Positions 28,388 through 53,484 of a stretch of 64,000 bases of DNA are shown piece by piece. The stretch's first letter is position 1; each line of letters starts with the position of its first letter. The translations under genes were made by a program, and so were the position numbers. The stretch is from Planctomycetota bacterium (lineage in GTDB: Bacteria > Planctomycetota > SZUA-567 > H5-PLA8): the NCBI GenBank assembly GCA_016200135.1, contig JACQFI010000060.1:1-64000 (forward strand), in the 5' to 3' direction. Below the pieces are notes generated by a model. It was not told where the DNA came from and searched no databases. It was given only the letters and a program-made list of their open reading frames with translations.

Positions 28388-29342
28388 CAAGCAGCAAAAA
28401 GAGCCGCCACATAAAGGCCGCCCATCAGATTTTCGCGTCACTCGGGCTACCTCGCGCACAACAGAACGAACGTTCGGCACTCTGTCTATTGGCGCTTCTC
28501 AACCTCACACCGGGAAAGCCGTGGTCGAAGTCGGAGAATCCACTCATTGGCATTACGCCCATCATGGATTGGACTCGTGAATACTACGACAAGAAATATG
28601 CGCCGAATACCCGCGAGACCGTCCGCCGCCAGACCATGCACCAGTTCTGTGACGCGGGCATCGCACGTTACAACCCGGACCAGCCGGACCGTCCTGTGAA
28701 CAGCCCCAAGGTTGTCTATCAGATCGAACCTGCCGCTCTGTCCTTGTTGAAACCTTCGGTACGCCCGCATGGCGTGACGCGCTCACGAACTACTTGGCCA
28801 AACGTGAGACGCTCGTCGCTCGCTACGCCAAAGAGCGTGCGCAGTGTCGAGTCCCGGTGAATATTGCACCGGGGAAGCAGATTACCCTCAGCCCCGGCGA
28901 GCACAGTGAACTGATCCGCGCCATAATCGAAGAATTCGCTCCACGCTTCGCGCCGGGTAGCGAGTTGGTCTATGCCGGAGACACGGGCGACAAGTGGGGA
29001 TACTTTGATGCCCCCTTGCTTGCCAAGTTGAGTGTCGATGTGGGGTCACACGGAAAAATGCCGGATGTGGTGTTGCACTACACCGCGAAGGACTGGTTGC
29101 TGCTGGTCGAATCGGTCACCAGCCACGGGCCGGTCGACGGAAAGCGGCACGCAGAGCTTGCGAAACTCTTTGCACCCTCAAAAGCCGGGCTGGTTTATGT
29201 TACAGCCTTTCCAACTCGGGCCATTATGAGCCGTTACCTTGGAGATATCGCTTGGGAAACCGAGGTGTGGGTAGCGGACGCTCCGTCCCACTTGATTCAC
29301 TTTAACGGCGCGCGCTTCCTTGGTCCGTATAGTGTGTCCTAA
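28384..29342 (+). pseudogene. BsuBI/PstI-family type II restriction endonuclease, frameshifted
   Basis: Two overlapping frames together encode one nuclease of about 319 residues, the family length. The first frame (28384-28860) gives the N-terminal DNA-recognition domain up to IEPAALSLLK. The second, entered near 28750, continues TFGTPAWRDALTNYLAKRET, then the catalytic domain with MPDVVLHYTAKDWLLLVESV and the TSHGPVDGKR motif. Restoring one A in the AAA run at 28750-28752 rejoins them. The catalytic PD...E residues are intact, so this is either a recent loss or a sequence error. The site is not a canonical heptameric slippery sequence. It overlaps the methyltransferase stop by four bases. 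Confidence 0.88.
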
Positions 29343-31071: not shown

Positions 31072-31179
31072 ACGCGCGCGGCTTTTTTGCCGCATCGGAT
31101 TCGGGCAAAGACCTGCCGGGTGCAGCCAAGTACAGTCTTGCGCGGGCAGTGTAGTCTGAGCGGGGCGGAGGAACGCAAC

Positions 31180-32835
31180 GTGGTGAATCGCCGCTGGGCC
31201 ATCTTAGCTGTGGTTGCGCTTACGCTGGCGCTCCAGGCCGAGGAAGGCAAAGGTCCGGCCGCGGGCGATTCTTCCGCCAAGGCCGGCGAGAACGATTGGC
31301 CGCAGTGGCGCGGGCCGACGCGGGACGGCGTGGTGCACGGCGGCGCGAGTCTGCTCGAAGCCTGGCCCAAAGAAGGGCCGCGGCAACTCTGGAAGAGCGC
31401 CTACATCCCCGGCTACCAGTCCGGAGGCTGCGGCAGCGTCTGCGTCGTGGGGGGGCGGGCCTTCGTCTTCGTCAACGAGGCGCGCTTCGAACCCAAGAAA
31501 CTGGTCACGGCCGAATATCTGGCCGGCTGGGGCTGGGCGCCGGACATGCCGGACGAGCTGGTGAAGAAGGTCGAGGCCGCGCGGACATCCGAGCAGCGCA
31601 AGAAAGCCAACACCGGTCCGCTGCTGGATGCGTGCGTCAAAGAGTTCGTGGCCGCGCTCGACGCCGAACACGCCCGGAAGTTCGGCGCGGCGATCGATAT
31701 CCGCATACGCAAAGGCGAGCACGCGTGGGCGTGGGAGACGCTGACGGCCCTGGCCCAGCATCGCGACACCGCGTTCAAGTCCTTCGACGAGTTCAAGGAC
31801 CTGTACAAGGCGACCAACGACTACCAGAAGTACGGCATCGACAACGAGGTCTTCGTCATCGGCCGCAGTGCCCAGCGCTTTCTCGATATTGTCATCGCCC
31901 TCGACGCGGCGACGGGCAAGGAACTCTGGAGGAAGGAGTTCCCGGGCATTTACACGCAGATGTTCGGCGGCCAGAACGCGTCCTGCGCCTGCGGCACGCT
32001 GGCCGTGGCGGAGGGCCGGTGCTACGCGACCGGCAGCGCGGGGCTCTATTGTTTGAACGCCAAGGACGGCGCGGAAGTCTGGAAGGCCGCCACCAAGTAC
32101 AGCAACTCATCGCCGCTGGTGCTCGGCGGCGCGGTTTACGTAATGGCCGAGCCCGCCGAGAAGCCTACGACCGTCATGGGCGGGGCGCTCTGCGCGTACG
32201 ACGCCGCCAGCGGCAAGCTGCTCTGGAAGCAGCCGAAGATCGACAGCGGCTGGGGCTGCTCGGTGGTTGCGTGGAGCAGCGCCGGCAAGACGTATCTCAT
32301 CGGCGGCGCGGCGTGCGTCGATCCGGCGACGGGCTCTATTCTCTGGTCGGTGAAAGGCGGCGGGCACGCGACGCCGGCTATCAGCGGCGACGTCATGGTC
32401 CTGCACGGCGACAAGATCCGCGCGTACAGGATCGCGCCGGAAAAAGGTGAGTTGCTGTGGGAAGCGAACAGCAGCACCGACCGCATGAGCAGCCCGGTCA
32501 TCTATCGGGACTGCGTCTTCTTCGACGGCGCGTACCAGAGCGGGTTCGGCTGCCTGGACCTGAAGACCGGCGCCGAAAAGTGGCGCCAGAAAGCGCAGAC
32601 CAGCCACTGTTCTTCCTTGGTCGCGGCCGACGGCCGGATCTTCATGAGCTTCGGCGCGCTGGGCCACGGGTACGACACCGAGTCCTTGCGCATGTTCAAG
32701 GCCGTGCCGGAGAAGTTCGAAGAACTGGGCCGCTTCACGCCACACGTGACGATCTGTTCGTCGCCCACCATCGCCGGAAGCAAGTTGTACCTGCGCCTGG
32801 ACGACGGCATCGCGTGCTATGATCTCACGAAGTGA
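31180..32835 (+). CDS. Secreted PQQ-like beta-propeller protein (dispersed copy)
   Basis: About 551 residues. A signal peptide (VNRRWAILAVVALTLALQA) is followed by DWPQWRGPTRDG, the opening motif of the family. Repeated propeller strands such as VIALDAATGKELWRKEFPG, LYCLNAKDGAEVWK and CLDLKTGAEKWRQ come next, ending LYLRLDDGIACYDL. A helical insert of about 130 residues (from LVTAEYLAGWGWAPDMP) interrupts the first blades, as in the four paralogues at 40-47 kb. PQQ-like propellers of this kind usually bind proteins or ligands and need not carry the cofactor. GGAGG is eight bases before a GTG at 31180; a GTG one codon later is equally possible. It stands alone 6 kb from the array. Confidence 0.8.
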   Translation: MVNRRWAILAVVALTLALQAEEGKGPAAGDSSAKAGENDWPQWRGPTRDGVVHGGASLLEAWPKEGPRQLWKSAYIPGYQSGGCGSVCVVGGRAFVFVNEARFEPKKLVTAEYLAGWGWAPDMPDELVKKVEAARTSEQRKKANTGPLLDACVKEFVAALDAEHARKFGAAIDIRIRKGEHAWAWETLTALAQHRDTAFKSFDEFKDLYKATNDYQKYGIDNEVFVIGRSAQRFLDIVIALDAATGKELWRKEFPGIYTQMFGGQNASCACGTLAVAEGRCYATGSAGLYCLNAKDGAEVWKAATKYSNSSPLVLGGAVYVMAEPAEKPTTVMGGALCAYDAASGKLLWKQPKIDSGWGCSVVAWSSAGKTYLIGGAACVDPATGSILWSVKGGGHATPAISGDVMVLHGDKIRAYRIAPEKGELLWEANSSTDRMSSPVIYRDCVFFDGAYQSGFGCLDLKTGAEKWRQKAQTSHCSSLVAADGRIFMSFGALGHGYDTESLRMFKAVPEKFEELGRFTPHVTICSSPTIAGSKLYLRLDDGIACYDLTK

Positions 32836-37464: not shown

Positions 37465-38559
37465 CTATTCGCCGCGCGGCGCGACGAGCGTCTCGCCGGC
37501 GTGCCATACGGCGGGCATGCGGAGGTGGGTGGGCTTGCGCGGGCGGGCGCGGAGCAGGTCCACGGCGGCGCGGCCCATGGCGACGAAATCGAGCGCCGGG
37601 CCGGTCCAATCGATCGTGCTCTCTGCGGGGCCGCGGAACGTTACCACGCTGAGGTCGCGCGGGATGGCGAGGCCCAGCGCCCGCGCTTCCGTTTCAATCT
37701 GGCCCGCGTGCATCTGGCTCGTGCAGAGCACCGCCGTCACGCGCGGGCGCGCCTGGAGCAGCTCCCCGATCGCGCTGCTGCGCGGTTCGAAGGTGGCGCT
37801 CACGATGCGGCACTGGTTCGATTTTAACCCCGCGCGCTTGCAGGCGGCCAGGAAGCCTGCCTGCCGTTCCTTGGCGTCGGGGTCGATGTTCTTGAGGTTG
37901 GAGACCACCGAGCGCACGAAGGCCAGTTGCCGGTGGCCGTGCTCGAGCATGCGCGCGGTCGCGTCGAACGCGGCGTCGTAGTTGCCGGCGGCGATCGAGT
38001 GCATCTTGTACTCATCGCCCGGCTGGTCCACGAGGACCACGGGCACGCCGACGGACTCGTACTTCTTCAGCAGCGCCGGAGGAAAGTTGCCCGGCAGGAT
38101 GATGCCGAGCAGCGGCAGGTCGCGCAGGCCGGAGGGACTCTCCTGCCGCCACCAGCGGAGTTCCTGTAGAAAGAGGAACGTGTGGCGCGTCTCCGCCAGG
38201 CGCTGCACGATGCCGTGGCCCACGCCCGGCCCGAGCCCGAAGCCGACGAACTCGGCCAGCGCGATTTTCGAGACCACCGCGACGGTCTGGTCCATGACTT
38301 CGGCGAGCGGCACGCGGCGCGTGGCGACGGCGGGGCGGCTCTGGCTGAGGCGCACGCGCCCGGCTTTTTGCAGCGCGTGCAGCGCGAGCCAGACCGTCTT
38401 GACGCCGACCCCGTGCGCGCGGGCCAGTTGCCGGCACGAAGGCAGGGCCTGGTCCACGGGCCATGCGCCCGCGTCGAGCTTCTGCTCGAAGGCCGCCGCG
38501 AGCGCCTTGAAGCGGGCCGCGGTTCCCGGCGGCCGGCCGCGGCGCGGCTTTTTCTTCAT
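37465..38559 (-). CDS. Transcriptional regulator: GntR-type HTH fused to LacI-type ligand domain
   Basis: A 364-residue regulator. The N-terminus KKKPRRGRPPG contains an AT-hook-like RGRP core. A GntR-type winged helix follows at about residues 25-85 (LPSCRQLARAHGVGVKTVWL, LQKAGRVRLS). From about 120 onwards it is a periplasmic-binding-protein-like effector domain of the LacI/GalR class (LPLLGIILPGNF, GVPVVLVDQPG, DAAFDATARMLEHGHRQLAF, VTAVLCTSQMHAG, LSVVTFRGPAES). Such hybrids respond to sugars. It is divergent from the five-gene propeller array, starting 268 bases away, and is the obvious candidate to control it. Confidence 0.85.
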   Translation of the reverse strand: MKKKPRRGRPPGTAARFKALAAAFEQKLDAGAWPVDQALPSCRQLARAHGVGVKTVWLALHALQKAGRVRLSQSRPAVATRRVPLAEVMDQTVAVVSKIALAEFVGFGLGPGVGHGIVQRLAETRHTFLFLQELRWWRQESPSGLRDLPLLGIILPGNFPPALLKKYESVGVPVVLVDQPGDEYKMHSIAAGNYDAAFDATARMLEHGHRQLAFVRSVVSNLKNIDPDAKERQAGFLAACKRAGLKSNQCRIVSATFEPRSSAIGELLQARPRVTAVLCTSQMHAGQIETEARALGLAIPRDLSVVTFRGPAESTIDWTGPALDFVAMGRAAVDLLRARPRKPTHLRMPAVWHAGETLVAPRGE

Positions 38560-38732
38560 GCCGTGATCCTCATGCGTGGCTCAGGCGTTCCGCCTGTTCA
38601 AAGAGTCCGGCGAAGCCGCTGCATCTGCATCCGAAACGAACGCTGGCGCGCTTCGCGTTCCTGATTGGACGGCCGAGACGGCTGTGCCACGTTTTCCCGC
38701 CCGAACTCGAAGCGTCACGCGCTCCGCAGCAT

Positions 38733-38755
38733 AAGGCAACAATAAGGGAACAATA
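38733..38755 (+). promoter_or_regulatory. Tandem 11-bp direct repeats, candidate operator
   Basis: AAGGCAACAATA and AAGGGAACAATA repeat with an 11-base period, one helical turn, about 75 bases before the first propeller gene and 175 bases from the divergent regulator start. A cooperative regulator site is a reasonable guess. No confident -35/-10 pair was found beside it. Confidence 0.35.
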
Positions 38756-38827
38756 GCGCGGAACTTGGCTGAGCGCAATGGGGGCGGGGACTCCCCGGTG
38801 TAGATTAGGCATGCGGGGGAGGCCGAA

Positions 38828-40372
38828 ATGCTTGATTCACATGTGCTTAACCAGACATTGCGAGTGCTGCTCACGACCTGCGTGATTTTGGCCGGAGGCA
38901 GCGCCGCCAGCGAAGCCCTCGCCGCGAAACCGGCCAAGTCGGAATTCGAGGCATTCTTCGGGCCGCAGACGGACTGGCCGCGCTACCGCGGTCCGCAGGG
39001 GAATGGCGTCGCGGAGCAGAAGGGCCTGCCCGTCAAATGGAGCAAGAAGGAGAACATCCTCTGGTCGGTGGACCTGTTTCAGCAGCCGAAGGACATCTAT
39101 CCACTTTACCCGTACACATCCCCGATTGTGTATAAGGATAAGATCTTCGTCACGCTCGCGACGTACAAGCCCGGCATCTTCGTCGAGCCGCCGAAAAACT
39201 TTAAACTCAAGGACCCGAAGCCGGCCACCTTCGCGGAGCTGGCGGAGTTCAAGCTGGTCTGCTTCAACAAGAGCGACGGCCGGAAACTCTGGGAGACGTT
39301 CATCGAACCCGGCGAAGGCTGGGAGGCGGGTCCGCTTCCCGGCGACCACGGGGACGAATGCTCGTTCGACGTCACCACGCCCTGCACCGACGGCGAGCGC
39401 GTGTACGTCGCCTTTGGCGGCCGGGGGATGGAAAAGAACCTGGGCGAGGGCGTGCTCGCCGCGGTGGACTACAGCGGCAAGGTGGTCTGGCGGCAGGATT
39501 TCACCAAGATGATCAAAGGGACCTTCGAGTACAACCTGAGCACCAGCCCGGTGCTCTACAAGAATACGATCGTCATGGTCCTGACCGTCGGGAACGGCGG
39601 CGGGTATACGGTCGCCTTCGACAGCAAGACGGGGACCTTGAAATACTGCGACCCGCGCCCCGTTCCGCCGTGGCCTGGGCGCAAACATATGGGCGGGCAC
39701 AGCACGCCGACTCCGGTGCTGGCGAATGGCACGCCGCTCCTTCTGTACAACGCGATCGCGTCGGTTGAAGGCATCAACCCCGAGGACGGCAAGGTCGTCT
39801 GGTTCGCCAAGTCGGGAGGCGGCTCGTCCTCCATGGTCCATGGCGGCGGGATCGTGTACGGCGACTATGCCAGCACCAAGTGGTCGGGCGCGGCCCTGGC
39901 GCTCGATACGCTCGCCGCAGCCAAGGGCGATATCACGAGCGCCGTGAAGTGGCGTCCGCCCACCGACGTGAGCATCGCCAACGACGACCTCGGCGAGTTG
40001 TCATCGCCGGTGCTTTACGGCGGCTACGTGTACCGCGCGGTGGGCGGGAAGGTGTATTGCACCGAAGCAGCGACGGGCAAGGTGCTGTACGCCGAGAAGC
40101 TGCCTTCGATCTCCTGGATCGCCAATCCCATCGCGACGGGCGACGGCCTGATCTACTTCGCGTCGTCGTACATGACGTACGTCCTCAAGGCCGGCCCCAC
40201 GTTTGAACTTGTCGCGACCAACGAGCTGGACGACGGCGAGTTCGCGCCGGCGTTTCTGCATAGCTGGCGGCCGAACGGCCCGCGGCACGGGTATCCCTAC
40301 AGTTCGTTCGCCGTATCGGAGGGGAAGTTCTTTGTCCTTGGATCCAACAAGCTGTGGTGTGTCGGGAAATAG
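38828..40372 (+). CDS. Secreted PQQ-like beta-propeller protein, array member 1 (no helical insert)
   Basis: A 514-residue protein. A signal peptide (hydrophobic TLRVLLTTCVILAGGSAASE) is followed by DWPRYRGPQGNGV, a variant of the family opening motif. It then carries propeller blades (LVCFNKSDGRKLWETF, LAAVDYSGKVVWRQDF, YTVAFDSKTGTLKY). It differs from the next four genes: the helical insert is missing, the N-terminal region includes VKWSKKENILWSVDL, and the C-terminus ends FFVLGSNKLWCVG. So it is the most diverged of the array and closer to general planctomycete PQQ proteins. GGGGGAGG lies six bases before the ATG. First gene of the array, 18 bases before the next. Confidence 0.85.
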   Translation: MLDSHVLNQTLRVLLTTCVILAGGSAASEALAAKPAKSEFEAFFGPQTDWPRYRGPQGNGVAEQKGLPVKWSKKENILWSVDLFQQPKDIYPLYPYTSPIVYKDKIFVTLATYKPGIFVEPPKNFKLKDPKPATFAELAEFKLVCFNKSDGRKLWETFIEPGEGWEAGPLPGDHGDECSFDVTTPCTDGERVYVAFGGRGMEKNLGEGVLAAVDYSGKVVWRQDFTKMIKGTFEYNLSTSPVLYKNTIVMVLTVGNGGGYTVAFDSKTGTLKYCDPRPVPPWPGRKHMGGHSTPTPVLANGTPLLLYNAIASVEGINPEDGKVVWFAKSGGGSSSMVHGGGIVYGDYASTKWSGAALALDTLAAAKGDITSAVKWRPPTDVSIANDDLGELSSPVLYGGYVYRAVGGKVYCTEAATGKVLYAEKLPSISWIANPIATGDGLIYFASSYMTYVLKAGPTFELVATNELDDGEFAPAFLHSWRPNGPRHGYPYSSFAVSEGKFFVLGSNKLWCVGK

Positions 40373-40390
40373 TCCGCTGAGAACTTGATT

Positions 40391-42220
40391 ATGCGCTGCG
40401 CACGGTTCGGTCTGCTCGCGCTCTTGTGTGCCGCCGGACTCGCCGGACTCGCTGGAACTACGCCCACTTTTGCCGGCGAACCGGCCAAAGGGACCACGGG
40501 CCCGAACGCCGCCGCGCCCGGCGCGATGGACTGGCCGCAGTGGCGCGGGCCGAACCGCGACGGCACCATGCCCGGCTGCCCGAAACTGCTCGACCAATGG
40601 CCCAAAGAAGGCCCGCGGCTGCTCTGGAAGAGCGAGCGCATCCCCGGCGGCGGCGGCAACGGCGTAAGCCATCCCGTGGTGGCGGACGGGAAGGTCTTCG
40701 TCTACGTGAACTGGAAACATCCTTTGGGCACGAAGGACGAGAACCAAGTGAAGCCTTACAACGCGGAAGTGCTGCGCGACTGGGGCTGGATTCCGGAACT
40801 CCCCGCCGACCTGGCGCAGAAGATCGAAGAGGCCCGCGTCTCGCCCAGCAAACCCAAGTTTAAAGGGATCTCGTTCCTGGGCGGCATGCCGCAGAAGGTC
40901 CAGGATGAGATGGTCGCGGATATTCTGAAGAAGAACCCGGAACTGGCGAAATACATCCAGGACTTCCTCGCTAAGCTCGACCCGAGCGCCGCCCAGCAGT
41001 ACGGGCCCTACGCCAAGCGCCGCATCTGCCACGCGGGGTTTACCTGGGAACAGTTGGGGCGTTTCGCCGCGATCGTGAAGGATCAGACGTTCAGTGAAAG
41101 CAAGAAGGTCGACGAGTTACTCAAGAGCAAAGGCTTCACGCTTGACCTGGAACTCAAGAAGTGCGGCATGAATCAGGACGAGTTCAACAAGTGTTTCACG
41201 GGCATCGCCTGGGCGCGCGCGTACACGCTGGTGGACACGGTCGTCTGCCTGGACGCGGCGACCGGAAAGGCGCTCTGGAAGAAGGAGTTCCCGCTCTTCG
41301 ATCTCGAGAGCCGTTTGAATTACGCGGGTTTCAGCCCGGGCAACTGGACGGCCGGGAGCGACCTGGTGGGCATCCCGACCGATTTCGTCAACTGGTTCGG
41401 TTCGGTGAGCACGCCGGCGGTCTGGGGCGGCCGGTGCTACGTGAAAGGGCTCCTGTCCCTGTACTGCCTTTCCGCGAAGGACGGCGCGGTGCTGTGGGAG
41501 GTCAAACGCAGCGGCACGCACTCTTCGGTGCTGGTGGCCGACGGCGTAGTCTACGCGGGCGGCGAAGCGTACGACGCCGACTCCGGCAAGCCGCTCTGGA
41601 AGGGCGGGGGCAACGGGCGCAGTTCGCCGATTCTCTGGGCCTCCGGCCAGAACAAGTATCTGATCGTCGATAATTCCTGCCTGGATCTGCGCACCGGCAA
41701 GGTCGTGTGGAAGTCCGACTGGAGCGACGGCGGCGGCATCACGCCGGTGCTCAGCGGCGATACGCTCGTCGCCAGCAACGGCGCGTACAAGCTGACGCCG
41801 GAGAAGGCCGAACTGCTCTGGAAGATGCCCGACATCTACATGGGCTCCTCCGACTGCACGAGCCCCATCGTGTACCAGGATTACATCTACTGGTATCACG
41901 ATTGGTATTCCGAGCCCGATTGGTGGTGCATCGACCTGAAGACCGGGAAAGTGCAATGGAAACAGAAGTCGCTGATTCCCTCCGGCACCAGCATCTCGTC
42001 CCCGATCCTGGTGGACGGCAAGATCATCCGGCCGAACGGCGACGGGCATAGCTGCAAGCCGTTCAAGGTCGAGATGCTGCAAGCCACGCCGGAGAAGTTC
42101 GTGCAGTTGAGCGTCTTCGATCCCGGCGCGCTCTATTTCTGCTCGCCCGCGTTGGCCGGCGGAAGACTGTACCTGCGCACCGCGGACGGCGTCTCCTGCT
42201 ACGACCTCGTTCACAATTAA
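40391..42220 (+). CDS. Secreted PQQ-like beta-propeller protein, array member 2
   Basis: A 609-residue protein from the ATG at 40391 (MRCARFGLLALLCAAGLAGL, signal peptide). DWPQWRGPNRDGTMPG opens the mature propeller. A long helical insert (VLRDWGWIPELPADLAQKIE through about residue 270) precedes blades such as VVCLDAATGKALWKKEFPL, LYCLSAKDGAVLWEVKRSG, CLDLRTGKVVWK and CIDLKTGKVQWKQ. It ends LYLRTADGVSCYDL. It has the longest insert of the array. It begins 18 bases after the previous stop. Outside or periplasmic location is inferred from the signal peptide. Confidence 0.85.
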   Translation: MRCARFGLLALLCAAGLAGLAGTTPTFAGEPAKGTTGPNAAAPGAMDWPQWRGPNRDGTMPGCPKLLDQWPKEGPRLLWKSERIPGGGGNGVSHPVVADGKVFVYVNWKHPLGTKDENQVKPYNAEVLRDWGWIPELPADLAQKIEEARVSPSKPKFKGISFLGGMPQKVQDEMVADILKKNPELAKYIQDFLAKLDPSAAQQYGPYAKRRICHAGFTWEQLGRFAAIVKDQTFSESKKVDELLKSKGFTLDLELKKCGMNQDEFNKCFTGIAWARAYTLVDTVVCLDAATGKALWKKEFPLFDLESRLNYAGFSPGNWTAGSDLVGIPTDFVNWFGSVSTPAVWGGRCYVKGLLSLYCLSAKDGAVLWEVKRSGTHSSVLVADGVVYAGGEAYDADSGKPLWKGGGNGRSSPILWASGQNKYLIVDNSCLDLRTGKVVWKSDWSDGGGITPVLSGDTLVASNGAYKLTPEKAELLWKMPDIYMGSSDCTSPIVYQDYIYWYHDWYSEPDWWCIDLKTGKVQWKQKSLIPSGTSISSPILVDGKIIRPNGDGHSCKPFKVEMLQATPEKFVQLSVFDPGALYFCSPALAGGRLYLRTADGVSCYDLVHN

Positions 42221-42265
42221 GCGCGCTGCACGCGGCGCCGCGATACTTCGAGAGGAACAAGCGAG

Positions 42266-43981
42266 ATGGAAAAGCGCACGCTCCTAACGTTCATGCTGGC
42301 GGCGAGCCTCGCGGCTACCGCGCTTTCAAACGGCCGCGCCGAGAACGCGCCCAGTCTCGCGCCGGGCGCGAAGAGCGCGCCACCGCCGGCCGGCTCGCTG
42401 GACTGGCCGCAATGGCGCGGGCCCAACCGCGACGGCGTTGCACCCGCGTCGCCGAAGCTGCCGGACCAGTGGCCGAGCGGCGGGCCGGCGCTGCTGTGGC
42501 GGAACCAGACCATCGGATCGGGCGCGGACGGCGGCTCCGGCAGCCCGGTGATCGCCGACGGCAAGGTCTACATCTACGCGAACATGACTATTTGCCAGCC
42601 GGGCAAGAAGCTGGTCACCGCGGAGGTGCTCGCCGATTGGGGCTGGACCCCGGACATGCCGCCGGACCTGGCGAAGAAGATCGAAGAAGCGCGCCTCGCG
42701 CCAAAGCGCAAGACGCTGAAGACGCCCGTGGAGATCGAGGCATACGCGAAGGAGTTCGCCGCGTCGCTGGACCCCAAGGACGGCGCAAAGTACGGCGCGC
42801 TCATCAAGAGCCGCTTCGCCCGGGACCCGGGCTTCTTCACGCTGGACGAACTGGGCCGGCTGGCCACGCTGCGCGATAAGGATTTCAAGACCGTCACTGA
42901 GTTCATGGATCAGGTCGAGAAGCTCGCGAGCATGCACCATCGCTACGGCGGCTGCGGCGAGGCGCTGGACGCGGCCATCCGGCAGGTCTTCACGCTGAGC
43001 GACGTGTTCGTCTGCCTGGACGCCGCGACGGGCAAGGAACTCTGGAGGAAGGAACTGCCGGCCGAGGGCCTGGCTTCGTCGCCGCAGTGGGCGCGCTGGG
43101 GCGCGTCGGGCACGCCCGCGGTTGCCGGCGGCCGGCTGATCGTGCAAGGCAGCGTCGCGCTCTACGGCCTGTCCGCCAAAGACGGTGCGCTCGTCTGGAA
43201 GACCAAGACCACCTACAGCAACGCCTCGCCGCTGGTCGCGGGCCGCGTGGTGCTCGCGGGCGCGGAGCCGCGCCAGGGCGACAAGGTGGAAGGACGCATC
43301 GGCGGCGCGCTGAGCGCCTACGACCTCGAGACGGGCAAGCCGCTCTGGCGCGCCAAGGCGGGCAACAGCGGGTGGGGCGGCTCGGTCGCGCCGTGGACCG
43401 GCGGCGGCAAGAACGCCGTCTTCACCATGGGCGGCGGGCTCTTCTGCGTCGATGCCGACAACGGCAACCTGCTGGCCGATACGAACAAGGGCGAGGGCGT
43501 CGATTGCTGGGCGACGCCCGCGGTCGCCGGCGACATCGTCGTCTCGCGCAGCGAGAACGTCACTAAAGCGTACAAGATCGCGCTGCCCAAGATGGAAAAA
43601 CTCTGGGAGAGCAAGAACCGCGGCGGCGATTTCGAGAGCGCCAGCCCGCTGATCTATCAGGGCGCGGTGTACGTCGCGGACCACGGTTCGCTGCGCTGCC
43701 TGGACCTGAAGACCGGCGAGCAGAAATGGATGGCGCCGAACAACGTCAACCCCGAGAGCTCCACGCCGCTGGTGGTGGACGGGAAGCTGATCACGAACGT
43801 CGGCAGCAACCACGCCAAGACGAACGAGACCGTGATGCTGCGCGCCACGCCCGAGAAGTGCGAAGTGCTGGGCCGGATCACGCACCCCGCGGCTGTGTGC
43901 ACTTCGCCCGCGGTCGCCGGAGGCCGCCTGTATGTGCGCCTGAGCGACGGCGTCGCCTGCTATGACCTGACCGCCAAATAA
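42266..43981 (+). CDS. Secreted PQQ-like beta-propeller protein, array member 3
   Basis: A 571-residue protein. A signal peptide (MEKRTLLTFMLAASLAATAL) and a short Pro/Ala linker lead to DWPQWRGPNRDGVAP. The helical insert reads VLADWGWTPDMPPDLAKKIE and contains a MHHRYGG turn. Blades include VFVCLDAATGKELWRKELP, LYGLSAKDGALVWKTKTTY, AYDLETGKPLWRAKAG and CLDLKTGEQKW. The C-terminus is LYVRLSDGVACYDLTAK. GAGAGGAA lies just before the ATG. It begins 45 bases after the previous gene. Function unknown beyond the propeller fold. Confidence 0.85.
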   Translation: MEKRTLLTFMLAASLAATALSNGRAENAPSLAPGAKSAPPPAGSLDWPQWRGPNRDGVAPASPKLPDQWPSGGPALLWRNQTIGSGADGGSGSPVIADGKVYIYANMTICQPGKKLVTAEVLADWGWTPDMPPDLAKKIEEARLAPKRKTLKTPVEIEAYAKEFAASLDPKDGAKYGALIKSRFARDPGFFTLDELGRLATLRDKDFKTVTEFMDQVEKLASMHHRYGGCGEALDAAIRQVFTLSDVFVCLDAATGKELWRKELPAEGLASSPQWARWGASGTPAVAGGRLIVQGSVALYGLSAKDGALVWKTKTTYSNASPLVAGRVVLAGAEPRQGDKVEGRIGGALSAYDLETGKPLWRAKAGNSGWGGSVAPWTGGGKNAVFTMGGGLFCVDADNGNLLADTNKGEGVDCWATPAVAGDIVVSRSENVTKAYKIALPKMEKLWESKNRGGDFESASPLIYQGAVYVADHGSLRCLDLKTGEQKWMAPNNVNPESSTPLVVDGKLITNVGSNHAKTNETVMLRATPEKCEVLGRITHPAAVCTSPAVAGGRLYVRLSDGVACYDLTAK

Positions 43982-44052
43982 CCCGCACGAGCGCCTCCGC
44001 GGTGTATGCTTATTCGATAAGCTTCAACGCGCGGACAAGGCGAGGTGAAACC

Positions 44053-45657
44053 ATGATCGAGATGAAGATCAGGATGGCGGCGGCTTTTATCGTGGTGGCG
44101 TGGATGTGGAGTTGCTCCTTGGCCGTTGCGGCCGAGACCGACTGGCCGCAGTGGCGCGGCCCTAACCGCGACGGCATTGCTCCGGAGAGCCCGAAACTTC
44201 TTGAGGTCTGGCCCGCGGAAGGCCCCAAGCTGCTCTGGAAGAGCACGCCCATGCCCTCCGGCCAGGACGGCGGCCTGGGCAGCGTGGCCGTGGCCGGCGG
44301 CAAGGTTTTCGTGTATGTGAACTGGAAGACCGAGATCCCCATCGAGAAGCGGGTGCTCTCCTCGCAAGCGCTCAATAATCTCGGTTGGACCGCCGATCTG
44401 CCGGAGGAACTGGCGCAAAAGATCGAAGAGGCCCGCCTTTCCGAAAAGCGCACGGGCTTGAAAGGCGAGGAGCTGGCTAAGTACATCAAGGAATTCGTCG
44501 CGGCCAACCTCGAGACGCCGGCGCCGGCGGCCGGGCAGCCCAATCTGGCGCAGAAATACGGGGGCTACGTCAACGCGCGCTTGAACAAGGGCGCGGACGC
44601 GCTGGCTTGGGATGTACTCGCCAAATTGAGCGGCATCCGCGACATGGAGTTTCCCAACTCGGCGGACTTCGAGAAGCTGATGACCGAGATCGGGATCCCC
44701 GAGGCCGCGCGGAAGCAGGTCCAGTGCGCGGCGCCGGCCAAAGGTTCCAACTACCAGGACACGGTGCTCTGTCTGGACGCGGCCACGGGCAAGGAAGTCT
44801 GGAAGCGCGAGTTCCCCGGGCGCGGCTACGACTGGGGCTGCTCGGCGACGCCCACCCTCGCCGGCGACAAGTGCTACATCACGGCCAGCAACGCGCGGCT
44901 CTACTGCCTCTCAGCCAAGGACGGAACCGTCGCGTGGGTCGCGGCCACTAAGAACGGCGGGCGCGATTCGTCTTCGGTGCTGGTGGCCGGCAACGCGGCG
45001 TACGTCTGCGGCGGGGAACTGCTGGCCTTCAATAAGGAGACCGGCCGGCAGCTCTGGAGCCAGCCCAAGGTCCGCGCCACGGAGAACTCGGTGGTGCTCT
45101 GGGCGAACGGCGGCAAGAACTACCTGCTCTGCAACACGCAGGACAAGGTCAACTGCGTGGACCCGGACACCGGCGCGATGCTCTGGCAGGCCGACGGTGG
45201 CGGCTGTACTTCGGCGGCGATCCTCGGCGACAACATGGTGCTGTACAGCGAGCGCGGCCTGCTCGCGTACACGCTCACGCCGCAAGCGGCACAGCCGCTC
45301 TGGTCCAAGAAGGAATGGCATGACCGCGGGGCCAGCGCGATTGTCTATAAGGACTGCGTTTACGTTGTCGGCGGCCGGATCGCCTGCGCGGACCTGAAGA
45401 CCGGCGCCGTGAAATGGGAGAAGCCCGCCGGCGGGGAGATCACCTCGCCGATCATGGCCGACGGCAAAATCATCAGCGGCGTGGACAGTTGCTCGGCGAC
45501 GGTAATCTTCCGGGCTTCGCCGGATAAGTACGAGGAACTCGGCCGCGCCAAGCTGAGCCAGTTGACGTGCTCCTCGCCGGCCATCGCCGGAGGGAAGCTG
45601 TACCTGCGCCTGGTGGACGGCGTCGCCTGCTACGACCTGGGGGCTCCAGAGAAATAG
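44053..45657 (+). CDS. Secreted PQQ-like beta-propeller protein, array member 4
   Basis: A 534-residue protein. The start at 44053 is supported by GAGGTG and by the signal peptide (MIEMKIRMAAAFIVVAWMWS) that begins there. TDWPQWRGPNRDGIAPE follows only 30 residues in. The insert begins ALNNLGWTADLPEELAQKIE, and blades include VLCLDAATGKEVWKREFPG, LYCLSAKDGTVAWVAATKN, AFNKETGRQLWSQPK and CADLKTGAVKWEK. The end is LYLRLVDGVACYDL. Same strand as its neighbours, with 71 and 36 bases between them. Confidence 0.85.
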   Translation: MIEMKIRMAAAFIVVAWMWSCSLAVAAETDWPQWRGPNRDGIAPESPKLLEVWPAEGPKLLWKSTPMPSGQDGGLGSVAVAGGKVFVYVNWKTEIPIEKRVLSSQALNNLGWTADLPEELAQKIEEARLSEKRTGLKGEELAKYIKEFVAANLETPAPAAGQPNLAQKYGGYVNARLNKGADALAWDVLAKLSGIRDMEFPNSADFEKLMTEIGIPEAARKQVQCAAPAKGSNYQDTVLCLDAATGKEVWKREFPGRGYDWGCSATPTLAGDKCYITASNARLYCLSAKDGTVAWVAATKNGGRDSSSVLVAGNAAYVCGGELLAFNKETGRQLWSQPKVRATENSVVLWANGGKNYLLCNTQDKVNCVDPDTGAMLWQADGGGCTSAAILGDNMVLYSERGLLAYTLTPQAAQPLWSKKEWHDRGASAIVYKDCVYVVGGRIACADLKTGAVKWEKPAGGEITSPIMADGKIISGVDSCSATVIFRASPDKYEELGRAKLSQLTCSSPAIAGGKLYLRLVDGVACYDLGAPEK

Positions 45658-45693
45658 CGGGAACCGTGGAAAGAAAGCGGAGGCTTGAACCCA

Positions 45694-47352
45694 ATGGCAA
45701 GAGCGAACAGCACCTGGGCCGTGATGGCTCTGGCCGGCGCAGCACTTCTTTTTCTTGCGAACGGCCATGCGGCAGAGACGCCCGCAAGCGAATGGCCGCA
45801 GTGGCGCGGGCCCAACCGCGACGGCGTCGCGCCCAGCAGTCCCGCGTTGCTCGACGCCTGGCCCAAAGAAGGCCCGCCGCTGGCGTGGAAGTACCCGGTA
45901 TTCCACTGCACGCCCACCGACGGCGGCATGGGCAGCCCGGTCATGGGCGAAGGCAAAGTCGTCGCGTTTTTCAACTTTCACCGCCGCATCCCCAACGATC
46001 CTGAAGGCGTGCGCGTGATCACCGACGAGGTCCTGAAGAAATGGATGTGGCTGCCGGACCTGCCGCCGGACTTGGCGAAGAAGTTCGAGGATGCGTGGCT
46101 GGCTCATAAGACGCGTGACGATCAGGGCGCGGCGCAGGGCAAAGCCTTCGCCGCGACGCTCGAGCCGCAGGTCGCCGAGAAGTACGGGAAGTATCTCGAA
46201 GAGCGCTTCCGGGGCTGGCCGGGCTGCGAGTTCAGTTGGGCGGAACTGACGTATCTGGCCAGCCACAAGGACGACAAGTTCAAGATGGTCGACGATTTCA
46301 ACACCATGGTCGGTAAGGGCGTGGGGATGCATCATCGCGGCGGCGCGCCCGAGCTGTTCGAAGCGGCGCTGAAGCTGGCGTTCAAGGACGCATGGATCGA
46401 CACGACGGTCTGCCTCGACGCTGCCACCGGGAAGGAACTCTGGAAGAAGGAGATGCCGGGCGCGCATCCCAAGTTCTACGCCGACTTCTGCGCCACTTGC
46501 ACGCCGGCCATCGCCGGCGGCAAGGCGTATAGCATGACCACCTCCGGGCTCTTCTGTTACGCGCTCAAGGACGGCGCGGTGGTCTGGCAGGCGAAGGCGG
46601 GCTTTGCGAACTCCGGACCGATGGTGGCCAACGGCGCGGTCTACATCGTCCTGCCCGACGGGCCGACGGCTTTCAACGCCGAGAACGGCCAGCAGCTCTG
46701 GAAACAGTCCAAGCTGGACACGCGCGCGAACAACTCGCTAGTGCCGTGGAACTCCGGCGGGAAGAACTATCTGCTCTGCGCCTCGGCGGGTTCGGGCGGA
46801 AACTTCTTCTGCCTGAATGCGAGCGATGGCCAGATTGTTTGGAGAGCGCCCGAGGAAGGGCGCGGCAGCGTGGGCGAAGGCGTGTACACCACGCCGGTCG
46901 TCGCCGGCGATCAGGCCTACGTTTACTGGGGCAAGCTGCGGCAGTTCAAGCTCTCGCCGGCCGGCGTGGAGGTGGGCGGCAAGTGGGATCTCGGCGGCGG
47001 CGACCGTGACGGCAGCCAGCTCGTCTACCAGGGCTTCGCATACGTCGTTCAGCACGGCGCGTGCAAATGCATGGACGCGAAGAGCGGCGAACTGAAGTGG
47101 TCGCAGCCGAACGGGAACCTCCAGAACAGCCTCTCGTCGCCGATCCTAGCGGACGGCAAGATCATCGCCACGCTGGTCTCCGGCCACGAAGGCGGCGGAA
47201 GCGTGGTGATGTACAAGGCCGCGCCCGGCAAATACGAAGAAGGCGGACGCTTTAATCCGCACGTGGTCGAGTGCAGTTCGCCGGCCATTGCAGGCGGCAA
47301 GCTCTACCTGCGCTGCGAAGACGGCATCTACAGCTACAACCTCGCGAAATAG
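45694..47352 (+). CDS. Secreted PQQ-like beta-propeller protein, array member 5
   Basis: A 552-residue protein. GGAGG ten bases upstream favours ATG 45694 over an in-frame TTG at 45685. The signal peptide (MARANSTWAVMALAGAALLF) is followed by EWPQWRGPNRDGVAPS. The insert contains VLKKWMWLPDLPPDLAKKFE and a MHHRGG turn shared with member 3. Blades include TVCLDAATGKELWKKEMPG, FCYALKDGAVVWQAKAG, AFNAENGQQLWKQ and CMDAKSGELKW. The C-terminus is LYLRCEDGIYSYNL. It closes the array, 251 bases before pilC. Confidence 0.85.
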   Translation: MARANSTWAVMALAGAALLFLANGHAAETPASEWPQWRGPNRDGVAPSSPALLDAWPKEGPPLAWKYPVFHCTPTDGGMGSPVMGEGKVVAFFNFHRRIPNDPEGVRVITDEVLKKWMWLPDLPPDLAKKFEDAWLAHKTRDDQGAAQGKAFAATLEPQVAEKYGKYLEERFRGWPGCEFSWAELTYLASHKDDKFKMVDDFNTMVGKGVGMHHRGGAPELFEAALKLAFKDAWIDTTVCLDAATGKELWKKEMPGAHPKFYADFCATCTPAIAGGKAYSMTTSGLFCYALKDGAVVWQAKAGFANSGPMVANGAVYIVLPDGPTAFNAENGQQLWKQSKLDTRANNSLVPWNSGGKNYLLCASAGSGGNFFCLNASDGQIVWRAPEEGRGSVGEGVYTTPVVAGDQAYVYWGKLRQFKLSPAGVEVGGKWDLGGGDRDGSQLVYQGFAYVVQHGACKCMDAKSGELKWSQPNGNLQNSLSSPILADGKIIATLVSGHEGGGSVVMYKAAPGKYEEGGRFNPHVVECSSPAIAGGKLYLRCEDGIYSYNLAK

Positions 47353-48916: not shown

Positions 48917-48962
48917 TAAATGGGTTGTATAGACGATGCCCTTGCTGCTTCCGTCAAGTATT

Positions 48963-48979
48963 TAGTGATTAAATCACTA
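48963..48979 (+). promoter_or_regulatory. 17-bp perfect palindrome, candidate operator
   Basis: TAGTGATT-A-AATCACTA lies about 40 bases downstream of the predicted transcription start. Size and symmetry fit a dimeric repressor. No second copy was noticed in the window. Confidence 0.5.
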
Positions 48980-49054
48980 CGGCGGTGTATATTTGTGGAC
49001 GAGGCGAACGGGCCTCTCTATCCTTATATAGCGTGCAGCGAGGTAAGGGGGGGG

Positions 49055-52000
49055 ATGCAGGCGATGAATCCAACCGCGAACATTGGCAGACTTGGTGCAG
49101 GGACCGCACTGGCGCTGGCCGTGCTGGCGTGTGTGTCGGCGCGCGCGGCCGAAGAGCGCGTCCTCTGCGACTTCGAAGCGCCGGATGGGATGAAGCTCAT
49201 TGAGGGCCGCGATAAGATTCAGCTTGTGGCCGAACACGCCACGCAGGGCAAGCAGGCGGGCAAGATTCCCGGCGGCTTCACATTGACTGCGGGTACCTGG
49301 ACGGGCCTCCCTGCCGACTGGAGCGGCTTCGACCAGTTCCGCCTGGACGTCTTCAACCCCGGCGAACCCGTCAAGGTCTCGGCGTGGATCACCGACAAGG
49401 AAGGCAACGATTACTGGAAGCGCCACAACGCCCAGTTCAATCTCCGTGCGGGCGCGAACACCCTGGTCATCGCCGTCGGCGGGCTCTACCGCGGCGAGAA
49501 AGGCAGCGGCAAGTTCCTCGACCCGAAAGGGATCCAGCAGCTTCTGCTCAGCTTCCCCAAGAGCGACGGCGGGTTCTTCATAGACAACATCGTCCTCGCC
49601 AAGGGCGCAGCGGGCGGCAAGGCCGAGATCAAGGTGCTGGCCGGCTTCGAGGCCGACAAGGAGGCGGGCCTGAAGTGGGCCATCGAGGACTGGCCCGAGG
49701 ACAAGCCCGGGAAGTCGGAGTCCTCGTTCGTCGCCGAGCATGTGACCGAAGGCAAGCGCGCGCTGAAGGTCGTCTTCCGCGCCAACGGCGGCGGCATTCA
49801 CGTTACCGATCTGGCCGACGGCGACTGGAGCAAGTACGACAGCCTGGAGCTCGACTGCTTCAACACGTCCGAGCAGCCGCTCAAGATCTCCGGCTGGTTC
49901 CGCGACGCGGAGGCCGCGCCGAGCGACGGCGATTACTGGAAGCGCCACAACTACCAGACCAACCTCAAGCCCGGCGCGTCCACGATCCGCTTCCCGATGG
50001 GCGGCTTCTACCGCGGCGAGAAAGGCAGCGGAAAGTTCCTCGACACGAAGAAGATGCTCTCCTTCTGTATCTCCTGCTCGAACGTGACGCTGTACCTCGA
50101 TAACCTGCGCCTGGTGAAGGGCGGGGAAGAGGTTGCGGTCGAGGGCCTCAAGGCGTTCGACTTCGGTTCCAAGAACAGCCCCACGTACCCGGGCTTCACC
50201 GCGGTCTCGAACGATACCGATTACAACAAAGCCCAGGGCTACGGCTGTGCCGGCCAGCGCCCGACCGATGCGCGCGACTACGAGCATCCCGACCCGCTCT
50301 TCAGCGACTTTGTGCGCCTGTCCGGCAACGAGACCTTCGCCGTGGACGTGCCGAACGGCGAGTACACGGTCTACGCGGTAATCGATTCGATCGGTTACTG
50401 GGACTACATGCACTGGTCGCACCGCAGCATCGAGGCCAACGGCGTGGAAGTCATCAACGAGAAGGTCAGCGCGGAGCAGTTCCTAAAGGAATTTTACTTC
50501 CGCCATCAGGACGACGAAGACCTGCCCGGCACGGACATCTGGCAGAAGTACATCCAGCGCCGCTTCCAGCCCAAGATCTTCAGCGCGAAGGTTGAGAACG
50601 GGCAACTCAAGCTCGCATTCAAGGGCGACACCTGGGGCCTGACGCTTTGCGCGCTTGTCGTCTACCCCGTGACCCAGAAGGACGCCGGCGCGCGCTGGCT
50701 GGAGCAGCTCGACCGCCGCCGCCGCGAGGACTTCTACACCGCGTTCGCCGAGACCGTCCGCAAGGCGGAGCCCAAGCCGGAACTCAGCGCCGCCGAACAG
50801 TCCGCGGGTTACGCGCTCTTCCGCCGCGACTTGGAGCAGGACATCTACTTCAACTCCGCGCCCGGCGGCGACCCGAAGGACGCGAAGGACGTCAAGATCG
50901 ATTGGGCCGCCTGCCCTGGCGAGTACGCCGCGGCCGACTTTTGCGTCTACCCGCTCAAGGACTGTGGCACGCTGACCGTGATGGCCGGCGACCTGAGCGG
51001 TCCGAACGGCGCGAAGATCTCCGGCGAGGCGGTGCGCATCCGCGCCATCCGCTACAAGTTCAAGCGCATCGGTGGGCGCATCACCAGCGCGTTCGAGTAC
51101 CGCCCGGAGCTGCTCGTGGACTTTAAAGAGTGGCCCGTGCCCGCGAACGTCACGCGGCGCTTCTGGGTCACGGCCAAGGTGCCCGCCGACGCCGCGCCCG
51201 GCGCGTACACGGGCAAGCTCACGCTGAACCTCGCCGGCGGCACGCGCGAGATCCCCATCGCGCTGCAGGTCTACCCGATCAAACTCGACGAGCCCGAGAT
51301 GTCCTTCGGGATGTACGGCGGTTCGGGCCCGACCGCCGGCTGGTGGCCGCAGGACGTGAAGGCCCTGTTCCGCATCGACGAGCGCATCGAGGAAGTGATC
51401 CGCGACCAGCGCGAGCACGGCATGACCGCGCTGACGCCGCCCGCGCCGTCGTTCAAGGGCTTCAAGGACGGCAAGGCCGAGTTCGATTATTCGAACATCG
51501 ACCGCGCCATGGAGCTGCTGCACAAGTACGGCTACCAGCGCACGTGCTTCACCTACGCGAGCATGTTCCGCGTGCACGAAGGCGACCTTGAAGCCGAGTG
51601 CAAGAAACAGTACGGCCTGCCGCTCGAACAGGCGATCAAGCTCGCCTACGAGGAACTCGGGCGGCACGCGAAGGAGAAGAGCTGGCTGCCCATGGCTTGG
51701 GCGCTCGCGGACGAACCGCTTATTCACGGCATCTCCGCGGAGACGGTGATCAAGGTCTTCGAGGCACACCGCAAGGCCGCGCCGCAGATGCAGTTCGTCA
51801 GCGAAGACGCGATGGGCGACCCGGCGCACTACGTCGTCATCCCCGCGATCGACATCGTGAGCGGCAACTCGCCACGCTACAAAGTGGCCGAGGCCGTGAA
51901 GAAGAACAAGAGCCGCTACTGGTACAACAACATCGGCTGCGACCGCCTGACGTTCGGCTGGTTCCTCTGGAAGTCGCGCAAGGAACTCGGCGTCGAGGCG

Positions 52001-52135
52001 CTCTTCCAGTGGGGCTACAGCACCAACGCCGCGGATATCTATTACGACCTGGACGGCTCCGAGGGCGACTCCGGCGTGAGCTTTACCGCCAGCGAGGGCC
52101 AGCGCGCGCGGCGCCCGTGGGAGACGATCCGCTAG
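49055..52135 (+). CDS. DUF4091-type glycoside hydrolase-like secreted protein (interrupted by an in-frame TAG)
   Basis: 1026 residues up to the TAG. A signal peptide (IGRLGAGTALALAVLACVSA) is followed by two homologous carbohydrate-binding-like modules that share DYWKRHN and YRGEKGSGKFLD (about residues 30-190 and 195-355). A malectin-like segment comes next (about 360-560), then a barrel with the DUF4091 region (MSFGMYGG, PMAWALADEPLIHG, RYWYNNIG, LFQWGYS). DUF4091 proteins are thought to act on polysaccharides. The family ends in a conserved W-E-x-I-R-E-G-x-x-D-x-R-Y-L stretch; here the Glu position is TAG. The ATG at 49055 is used, and 49064 with GGGGGG nine bases away is an alternative. 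Confidence 0.82.
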   Translation: MQAMNPTANIGRLGAGTALALAVLACVSARAAEERVLCDFEAPDGMKLIEGRDKIQLVAEHATQGKQAGKIPGGFTLTAGTWTGLPADWSGFDQFRLDVFNPGEPVKVSAWITDKEGNDYWKRHNAQFNLRAGANTLVIAVGGLYRGEKGSGKFLDPKGIQQLLLSFPKSDGGFFIDNIVLAKGAAGGKAEIKVLAGFEADKEAGLKWAIEDWPEDKPGKSESSFVAEHVTEGKRALKVVFRANGGGIHVTDLADGDWSKYDSLELDCFNTSEQPLKISGWFRDAEAAPSDGDYWKRHNYQTNLKPGASTIRFPMGGFYRGEKGSGKFLDTKKMLSFCISCSNVTLYLDNLRLVKGGEEVAVEGLKAFDFGSKNSPTYPGFTAVSNDTDYNKAQGYGCAGQRPTDARDYEHPDPLFSDFVRLSGNETFAVDVPNGEYTVYAVIDSIGYWDYMHWSHRSIEANGVEVINEKVSAEQFLKEFYFRHQDDEDLPGTDIWQKYIQRRFQPKIFSAKVENGQLKLAFKGDTWGLTLCALVVYPVTQKDAGARWLEQLDRRRREDFYTAFAETVRKAEPKPELSAAEQSAGYALFRRDLEQDIYFNSAPGGDPKDAKDVKIDWAACPGEYAAADFCVYPLKDCGTLTVMAGDLSGPNGAKISGEAVRIRAIRYKFKRIGGRITSAFEYRPELLVDFKEWPVPANVTRRFWVTAKVPADAAPGAYTGKLTLNLAGGTREIPIALQVYPIKLDEPEMSFGMYGGSGPTAGWWPQDVKALFRIDERIEEVIRDQREHGMTALTPPAPSFKGFKDGKAEFDYSNIDRAMELLHKYGYQRTCFTYASMFRVHEGDLEAECKKQYGLPLEQAIKLAYEELGRHAKEKSWLPMAWALADEPLIHGISAETVIKVFEAHRKAAPQMQFVSEDAMGDPAHYVVIPAIDIVSGNSPRYKVAEAVKKNKSRYWYNNIGCDRLTFGWFLWKSRKELGVEALFQWGYSTNAADIYYDLDGSEGDSGVSFTASEGQRARRPWETIR

Positions 52136-52369
52136 GGCGCCAACGACCATCGCTATCTACAGACGCTCGCGAATCTCATCGCAAAGGCCGAGGCAGGCGG
52201 CAGCGTGGACGCGAAGGCCAAGGCCGCCGAGGCCGTGAAGTTCATCGATGGCGTGATGGAGAAGATCGAACTCGAAAACAAGAGCAAGAAGGCCTACTCT
52301 TTCGCGGAGCTCGACGGCTTAAAGCGCAAGCTCGCCGAGTACATTCTGGCGCTGCAGGGCTCGAAATAG
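52136..52369 (+). other. In-frame continuation of the DUF4091 gene after the amber codon
   Basis: Directly after TAG (52133-52135) the same frame stays open for 77 codons to a TAG at 52367-52369. It reads GANDHRYLQTLANLIAKAEA and continues as a helical tail, exactly what follows the conserved Glu in related proteins. Composition and codon use match the gene. So the stop replaces a sense codon, most simply GAG, one base away. The next gene's ribosome site begins just after the second TAG. Confidence 0.8.
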
Positions 52370-52385
52370 GGGAGGGGACACCTTC

Positions 52386-53438
52386 ATGCGCGTGGCCGTC
52401 GTCGGTATTCGTGGGATGGGCAAGAATCACCTGAGTGCGGCCAAGAAGTGCGCGCTGGTGCGCGAAGTGGCCGGCTGCGACATCAGCGAGGACGTGCGGG
52501 CGAGCGTCGGCGCCGAGTTCCAGATTCCGACGTTCGGCAGCGTCGACGCGGTGCTGCGCGACTTCAAGCCGCAAGTGCTCGTTGTCGCGACTCCGCCCAA
52601 CCGGCACGGCGAGGTCGTCCGGGCCGCGTTCGAGCGCGGCGTTGCGGTGCTGACCGAGAAGCCGATCGCCGAGAGCCTGAAAGAATCGCAGGACCTCGTG
52701 GAGTTGGGCGAACGCAAGGGCGTTCCGTTCCAGTGCGGCTTTCAACTGCGCTACTGCGGCATGATGCTGAAAGTGAAAAACCTAATCGATGCCGGCGAAC
52801 TCGGCACGCTCGGCCGCGTCAGCCTCACGCAGTACTCCGGTTCGCACACGAAACTTGGCTACATGACGCGCGAGCGCACCGGCGGCATCTTTTACGAGAA
52901 GCTCTGCCATCAGGTCGATATCTTCCGCTACCTTCTGGGCGAACCCGAGCGCGTGATGGCCAGCGCCGCGCCTACGGTGCTCAAGCATTACGGCATCGAC
53001 GACAACGTGCTGGCGGTCTTCGCGTTTCCCGGCGGAAAGCAGGGCGTCATCACCTTCGATACGCGCCGCGCGGCGCAGGTGGACGCGGTCGAGAAGCCCG
53101 GCCGCGATTTCGAGGGCCGCGAGGCCGGGCACTTCTACGAACTGACGTTCACGGGCGACCGCGGCACGGCGGTGTACGATGCGTGGACTTCTTGCGTCGA
53201 TGTCATGCGCTTCAACCACCGCGAGGACCTGAAGACCGAATGGGTCCGCCGCATCGACTTGCGCAAAGAAGGCTGCGAGTCCGCCTACGATCTTTCTGGC
53301 CAGGACGGCGACTTCTTCCGCCACGTGGCGGAAGGCAAAGCGCCGCGCTTCCCCGCGTCCGACGCGCTGAAGTCCATGCAGTGGGTCGAGCGCGCCGAGG
53401 AATCGCTGCGCCGGAACGGTGCGTGGGTGGAAGTCTGA
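52386..53438 (+). CDS. Gfo/Idh/MocA-family NAD(P)-dependent oxidoreductase
   Basis: A 350-residue oxidoreductase. The N-terminal Rossmann fold begins MRVAVVGIRGMGKNHLSAAK, VATPPNRHGEVV lines the nucleotide site, and EKPIAESLKES holds the catalytic Lys. The C-terminal sheet domain contains YEKLCHQVDIFRYLLGEPE with the usual Asp/His pair. Members oxidise or epimerise sugars and sugar acids. The gene starts 16 bases after the true end of the DUF4091 frame with GGGGAGGGG before it, so it belongs to the same operon. Confidence 0.88.
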   Translation: MRVAVVGIRGMGKNHLSAAKKCALVREVAGCDISEDVRASVGAEFQIPTFGSVDAVLRDFKPQVLVVATPPNRHGEVVRAAFERGVAVLTEKPIAESLKESQDLVELGERKGVPFQCGFQLRYCGMMLKVKNLIDAGELGTLGRVSLTQYSGSHTKLGYMTRERTGGIFYEKLCHQVDIFRYLLGEPERVMASAAPTVLKHYGIDDNVLAVFAFPGGKQGVITFDTRRAAQVDAVEKPGRDFEGREAGHFYELTFTGDRGTAVYDAWTSCVDVMRFNHREDLKTEWVRRIDLRKEGCESAYDLSGQDGDFFRHVAEGKAPRFPASDALKSMQWVERAEESLRRNGAWVEV

Positions 53439-53484
53439 GTTGCAGCCGATGCGTACGTTCGTCTTTTCTTCGAGGAGGATATCC

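Follow-up and report, generated by a model that had tools for sequence, protein, structure and literature searches.

Five genes for secreted proteins with a predicted propeller fold follow each other head to tail in a planctomycete contig, opposite a single regulator gene of a sugar-sensing type. The window, i.e. the whole stretch of 64,000 nucleotides analysed here, contains a sixth similar gene at 31 kb. Was this array built by local multiplication of one gene, as the original prediction proposed, and what do the regulator and the propellers have to do with each other?

The array and its propeller proteins

The five consecutive genes exist as predicted: all are open reading frames on the plus strand between positions 38828 and 47352, and all exceed the cut-off of the PF13360 (PQQ_2) model (Table 1). 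The gaps between them come to the predicted 18 to 71 bases if copy 2 is taken to start at its likely ATG, position 40391, and the sixth copy is present at 31.09-32.84 kb. Judging from these short gaps, the array may be co-transcribed; a promoter scan of the array gave nothing above chance, and terminator-like sites were more frequent than in shuffled sequences only to a slight and uninformative degree. In agreement with the predicted secretion, all five copies begin with what looks like a cleavable signal sequence, as judged by eye and not by a signal-peptide program.

Table 1. Positions of the propeller genes, the regulator and related features in the window, and propeller units of the genome.
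Feature	Position	Strand	Evidence
P0007, GntR-LacI hybrid regulator, divergent from the array	37465..38559	-	PF13377 67 bits; PF00392 26.6 bits
Divergent intergenic region, presumed shared promoter/operator	38560..38827	.	sequence
Candidate operator, tandem direct repeat AAGGCAACAATAAGGGAAC	38733..38751	+	three sites, pattern by eye, weak
Array copy 1, BamB-type propeller without insert, divergent sequence	38828..40372	+	23% identity to others; PF13360
Array copy 2, insert-bearing propeller, likely ATG 40391	40385..42220	+	PF13360
Array copy 3, insert-bearing propeller	42266..43981	+	PF13360; structure model pLDDT 80
Helical insert, copy 3	42602..42985	+	insert profile match; helical, pLDDT 86
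Array copy 4, insert-bearing propeller	44053..45657	+	PF13360; deep single branch
Array copy 5, insert-bearing propeller, likely ATG 45694	45685..47352	+	PF13360; deep single branch
Sixth copy, insert-bearing propeller, start codon uncertain	31087..32835	+	PF13360; orthologue G001:C290
Helical inserts of the other copies	40745-41200, 44344-44706, 46006-46368, 31492-31836	+	insert profile matches
Multi-copy units: window array (four insert-bearing), contig 36 (eight), contig 94 (three)			copy 3 genome search
Single-copy units: 31 kb copy; contigs 2, 6, 19, 33, 34, 93, 105, 112			copy 3 genome search

The opening motif, which was thought to run through the array, and the C-terminal end, predicted to be the same in four copies, are common to copies 2 to 5 and the 31 kb copy, but not to copy 1. 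The five insert-bearing copies share approximately 40% identity, the opening DWPQWRGPNRDG, the C-terminal end and a helical insert of 125-165 residues inside the first blade. Since they align over their full length at this identity, their likeness is far beyond chance. Copy 1, which is the gene directly following P0007 in the window, is 23% identical to the other array copies, has DWPRYRGPQGNG in place of DWPQWRGPNRDG, ends with a different C-terminus and lacks the insert. It falls outside the insert-bearing subfamily and is thereby ruled out as founder of the array. The paralogue closest to it in this genome (G000), with 55% identity, is found on contig 41 as the propeller half of a fusion with an ECF sigma factor. 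In this fusion gene (G000:C41:300-2529, L137), sigma factor regions 2 and 4 are joined to a BamB-type propeller; the gene looks frameshifted, as the match to copy 1 resumes in another frame after approximately position 2100.

The designation as PQQ propellers holds for the fold (PQQ_2) but not for the cofactor, as PQQ binding is not indicated. The copy 3 model shows an eight-bladed BamB-like propeller (Foldseek E 7.8e-17, TM 0.66 on BamB length), with BamB and tetrathionate hydrolase among the best fold matches. In this model (pLDDT 80), two long strands of the first blade are separated by a series of helices, residues 119-237, and the insert modelled alone is a confident helical domain (pLDDT 86, pTM 0.78), which is probably a cap. 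Comparison of the insert fold with the PDB gave no match better than E 1.3, and the sequence search with the insert gave no credible match. Hypervariability of the insert was not seen: its identity of 37% compares with 36-44% in the blades. The conserved positions of the subfamily are mostly W, G, D, T and C of the blade cores, and no conserved catalytic set stands out among them. The original prediction also suggested selection for diversified ligand binding. For a dN/dS analysis the array copies are too old, and the insert, as noted, varies no more than the blades.

Several other genes surround the array. Downstream of it, at 48920-57704, genes for GH123-like, Gfo/Idh/MocA, sortilin/BNR and FG-GAP propeller proteins are located, and thus two further propeller folds (sortilin/BNR and FG-GAP) are encoded at most 11 kb away. 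The T2SSF gene that follows the array (47604) was considered for a conserved role, but this was ruled out, its close relatives in G001 having no propellers nearby. The region 26906-29342 contains a Type II restriction-modification pair of the BsuBI/PstI type, the endonuclease of which is probably frameshifted, as it is split between two frames that overlap (28384-28860 and 28794-29342).

Size and history of the family

The family proved not to be confined to the window. The search with copy 3 revealed 24 members of the insert-bearing subfamily at 12 units across the genome, which is available as a fragmented assembly of 6.1 Mb (91% complete) with 121 PQQ_2 matches overall. An eight-copy array on contig 36 (G000:C36:6223-26032, L009 and L010) is larger than the one in the window. 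Several of its copies, as well as the copy on contig 33, have a C-terminal extension of approximately 350 residues, for which no Pfam match was found. In the phylum the insert is present in 11 of 294 sampled genomes, with four copies in each of two relatives and one in the rest; this survey scored 14 candidates per genome, the count of 24 coming from the separate search with copy 3. Single members with about 31% identity are found in Verrucomicrobia. No plasmid-borne relatives of copy 3 and no phage families were found.

If the array had grown by local tandem duplication, as the original prediction had it, its copies should be each other's closest relatives. The phylogeny revealed that the four insert-bearing array copies do not group, their nearest relatives being encoded on different contigs or by different species. 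The partner of copy 2 is a propeller on contig 94 (C94:106470; support 97/85), that of copy 3 is the contig 33 copy (98/87), and that of the 31 kb copy is its orthologue G001:C290 from a second species of the genus (51% identity, support 100/100). Copies 4 and 5 are deep branches, each standing alone. A single clade of the four insert-bearing array copies was rejected in the AU test (p = 4.9e-6), and so was a clade of these four together with the 31 kb copy (p = 4e-49). In line with this, the array was present in no relative examined, and the flanks of the window are absent at the relatives' propeller loci. Both outcomes had been named in the original prediction as grounds for doubting local duplication. 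Recent local tandem amplification is thus ruled out by the tree, the AU test and the synteny. With its members having separate nearest relatives and no shared flanks, the window array is, on this phylogenetic evidence, an old assembly of separate lineages and not the product of recent duplication.

Hybrid regulators and candidate operators

The divergently oriented gene P0007 was predicted to encode a GntR/LacI hybrid, and this was confirmed: the protein combines a GntR-type helix-turn-helix with a LacI-type sensor (Table 1). The score of the helix-turn-helix by hmmscan is 0.4 bits under the 27-bit cut-off, and in the genome search it is above it (29.8 bits).

The coupling between regulator and propellers is real, as it recurs at further loci of the genome and was also seen in two relatives. 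A hybrid regulator of the GntR+Peripla_BP_3 type is located immediately upstream at seven of the 12 units, a figure that measures linkage and not independent events, as neighbouring genes may share descent. Under uniform placement approximately 1% per unit would be expected, and the chance of seven in 12 is approximately 2e-11. The linkage limit of 1.6 kb was set after the data had been seen, although a moderately different limit would leave the conclusion unchanged. All seven paired regulators carry both PF13377 and PF00392. The arrangement of the window, with the regulator directly next to a propeller gene and divergent from it, returns with paralogues of P0007 and subfamily members on contigs 2, 6, 19 and 34, and a sixth regulator of this type lies less than 5 kb from the array on contig 36; in the regulator tree, these six and two regulators of G001 form one clade. 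The propellers of contigs 93 and 94 directly follow a hybrid regulator of a second type (type B), and propeller clade and regulator type correspond. At G001:C135, in the other species of the genus, the linkage is kept with both genes on one strand and 49 bp between them, and at G006:C3, in a different genus of the family, with the genes in divergent orientation. An adjacent regulator was not found at five of the 12 units, one of which, on contig 112, starts 588 bp from the contig end, too near for a judgement. Distant members outside the family, including those of Verrucomicrobia, have no hybrid regulator linked to them. The presence of regulators upstream of about half of the units suggests that these are reusable, separately controlled modules rather than the outcome of one local multiplication.

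As to the signal sensed, the orthologue of P0007 in G001 adjoins genes for acetate kinase and phosphoketolase (identified by eye from the sequence), which fits sugar sensing. No consistently linked sugar transporter or hydrolase was seen in the loci, which were looked over unsystematically.

In the region between P0007 and copy 1, the promoter scan found no sigma-70 consensus. The repeat AAGGCAACAATAAGGGAAC in this region is common only to the window, the contig 34 cassette and the orthologous regulator of G001. As a candidate operator pattern it was drawn by eye from these three sites, and it had no independent match and one match in the reversed control. In the type-B cassettes, two ACWWGCWWGT-like palindromes, 21-22 bp apart, are followed by NYTGGTGTAT. 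This element is present upstream of the second regulator type at two loci in G000, in G001 and in G006, the palindromes being imperfect at contig 94. NYTGGTGTAT resembles an extended -10 region, and the type-B operator overlaps it. The 16-base core was found five times in 21 genomes and not at all in the reversed control, and the only site outside the defining set is located 24 bp before another hybrid regulator in G001. The type-B element is the strongest regulatory evidence, but for sister cassettes and not for the window. At that additional locus (G001:C257:23053-26975, L156), the type-B operator and the hybrid regulator are followed by a gene for an 887-residue secreted protein of the FlgD-Ig/NHL type, a propeller family different from that of the PQQ_2 array.

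Possible roles of the propellers

Acido-empty-quinoproteins are expanded, quinoprotein-like propellers thought to lack PQQ. The window family resembles them in being an expanded propeller family, but the lineages differ, the best score with the group A model TIGR04528 is 44.8 bits (cut-off 650), and we know of no helical insert in these proteins. Planctomycetes are also known for ECF sigma factors with C-terminal propellers of the WD40 type. The fusion carrying the closest paralogue of copy 1 resembles such proteins, although its propeller is of the PQQ_2/BamB type, and the propellers of the array are free-standing. The regulators are like the GntR-LacI (AraR-like) repressors of sugar operons: a winged helix is combined with a Peripla_BP_3 sensor, the gene is in a divergent or leading position, and in the type-B cassettes the operator overlaps the promoter. 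Unlike in AraR-like systems, the targets here would be secreted propellers and not catabolic genes or transporters.

With BamB (YfgL) and the expanded BamB-like families of Planctomycetes, the window family shares the PQQ_2 fold, secretion and the many paralogues per genome. The planctomycete Tuwongella immobilis has 28 BamB paralogues (PMC8567305), and a Gluconobacter protein annotated as PQQ dehydrogenase proved to act as BamB (PMC11302035). These cases, together with the place of BamB among the best fold and sequence relatives, would agree with specialised BamB-like factors, which assemble particular outer-membrane proteins and are expressed when these clients are made. We consider this role unlikely, however: scores with the BamB models lie at 24-60 bits, where the cut-offs are 285-423 (TIGR03300 at most 59.6, cut-off 285.2; PRK11138 54, cut-off 423), no lipobox Cys was seen by eye in the N-termini, which have ordinary cleavable signals, and BamB lacks the first-blade helical insert, the dedicated hybrid regulators and the arrays. 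One regulator per cassette would also be odd for a general assembly factor. A similarly low probability is assigned to secreted enzymes, be it quinoproteins or hydrolases or lyases using the propeller funnel. Quinoprotein dehydrogenases and tetrathionate hydrolase have the same fold, the latter (6l8a) being nearest among solved structures in the sequence-profile comparison (E 3e-33) and one of the best fold matches, and carbohydrate-active and oxidoreductase genes lie downstream of the array. But the PQQ dehydrogenase model TIGR03075 reaches 49.9 bits at most (cut-off 480), some copies exceed the cut-off of PF01011 but match only short pieces of its 595 positions, and no catalytic set stands out among the conserved residues. 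Tetrathionate hydrolase itself is approximately 20% identical and has no helical insert, and no sulfur-oxidation context was noticed in the propeller loci examined.

That the propellers are extracytoplasmic sensors, which report ligands to membrane signalling proteins, seems more doubtful still. It would be in line with the similarity of copy 1 to the outer part of the sigma factor fusion and with solved structures of kinases having such propellers (7eq5), but in the insert-bearing copies neither a membrane anchor nor a signalling domain was detected, and no partner is linked to them. Equally improbable in our opinion is a largely neutral, mobile-element-like expansion, in which regulators are linked because cassettes duplicate together with their neighbours. 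Signs of decay do exist: the insert-bearing propeller gene on contig 34 (G000:C34:40024-41688) has an in-frame TGA next to an intact regulator and is either a pseudogene or an assembly error, most of the insert is lost in C36:23354 and on contig 105, and the copy number is 0 or 1 in most genomes and up to 24. However, most copies are full-length, with approximately 71% identity in the opening motif and a strong third-position GC bias, and intact frames with these properties after deep divergence imply selection.

The reading we prefer, and to which we give about an even chance, is that of sugar-responsive, repressor-controlled secreted binding propellers with a helical insert, which spread through the genome as cassettes. 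Secreted, insert-bearing proteins with the BamB fold would form a repertoire that extends over the whole genome, with the array as a single locus of it, and a cassette would consist of a GntR-LacI hybrid regulator and one or more propeller genes, the family having spread largely in this form. The regulator may keep the cassette to which it belongs repressed by occupying operators that overlap the promoter, and binding of a small sugar-like ligand to the LacI-type sensor would release the operator. The secreted propellers could then act outside the cytoplasm as non-catalytic binders or scaffolds for the matching substrate. Binding rather than conversion is proposed because no enzyme-level model matches and because the relatives of copy 1 are sensor-like. 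Against this reading count the five units at which no adjacent regulator was found, the fact that copy 1 and not an insert-bearing gene is next to P0007, the weak candidate operator of the P0007 type, and the missing linkage outside the family; nor did a glycan-binding feature of the propellers come to light. It is tempting to go further and speculate that repressor and helically capped propellers duplicated and diverged jointly, each cassette sensing and binding a different extracellular glycan. This would be a repertoire of BamB-fold proteins with a new helical domain, functionally analogous to those of the SusCD type, but this extended version we regard as rather improbable.

The expansion of BamB-like paralogues in Planctomycetes and their misannotation as PQQ enzymes are already known; the regulator-propeller cassette and the helical insert are the newer parts. 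In the open-access full-text literature we found no description of the array organisation, the insert-bearing subfamily or the pairing with hybrid repressors. Planctomycetes carry dozens of BamB/PQQ-like propellers without a known role. The recurring link to a sugar-type repressor, together with a specific operator, is a testable handle on the purpose of at least one large subfamily. The hybrid regulator is an inducer-sensing protein that could reveal the ligand, and the helical insert, for which solved structures offer no counterpart, would represent a new domain.
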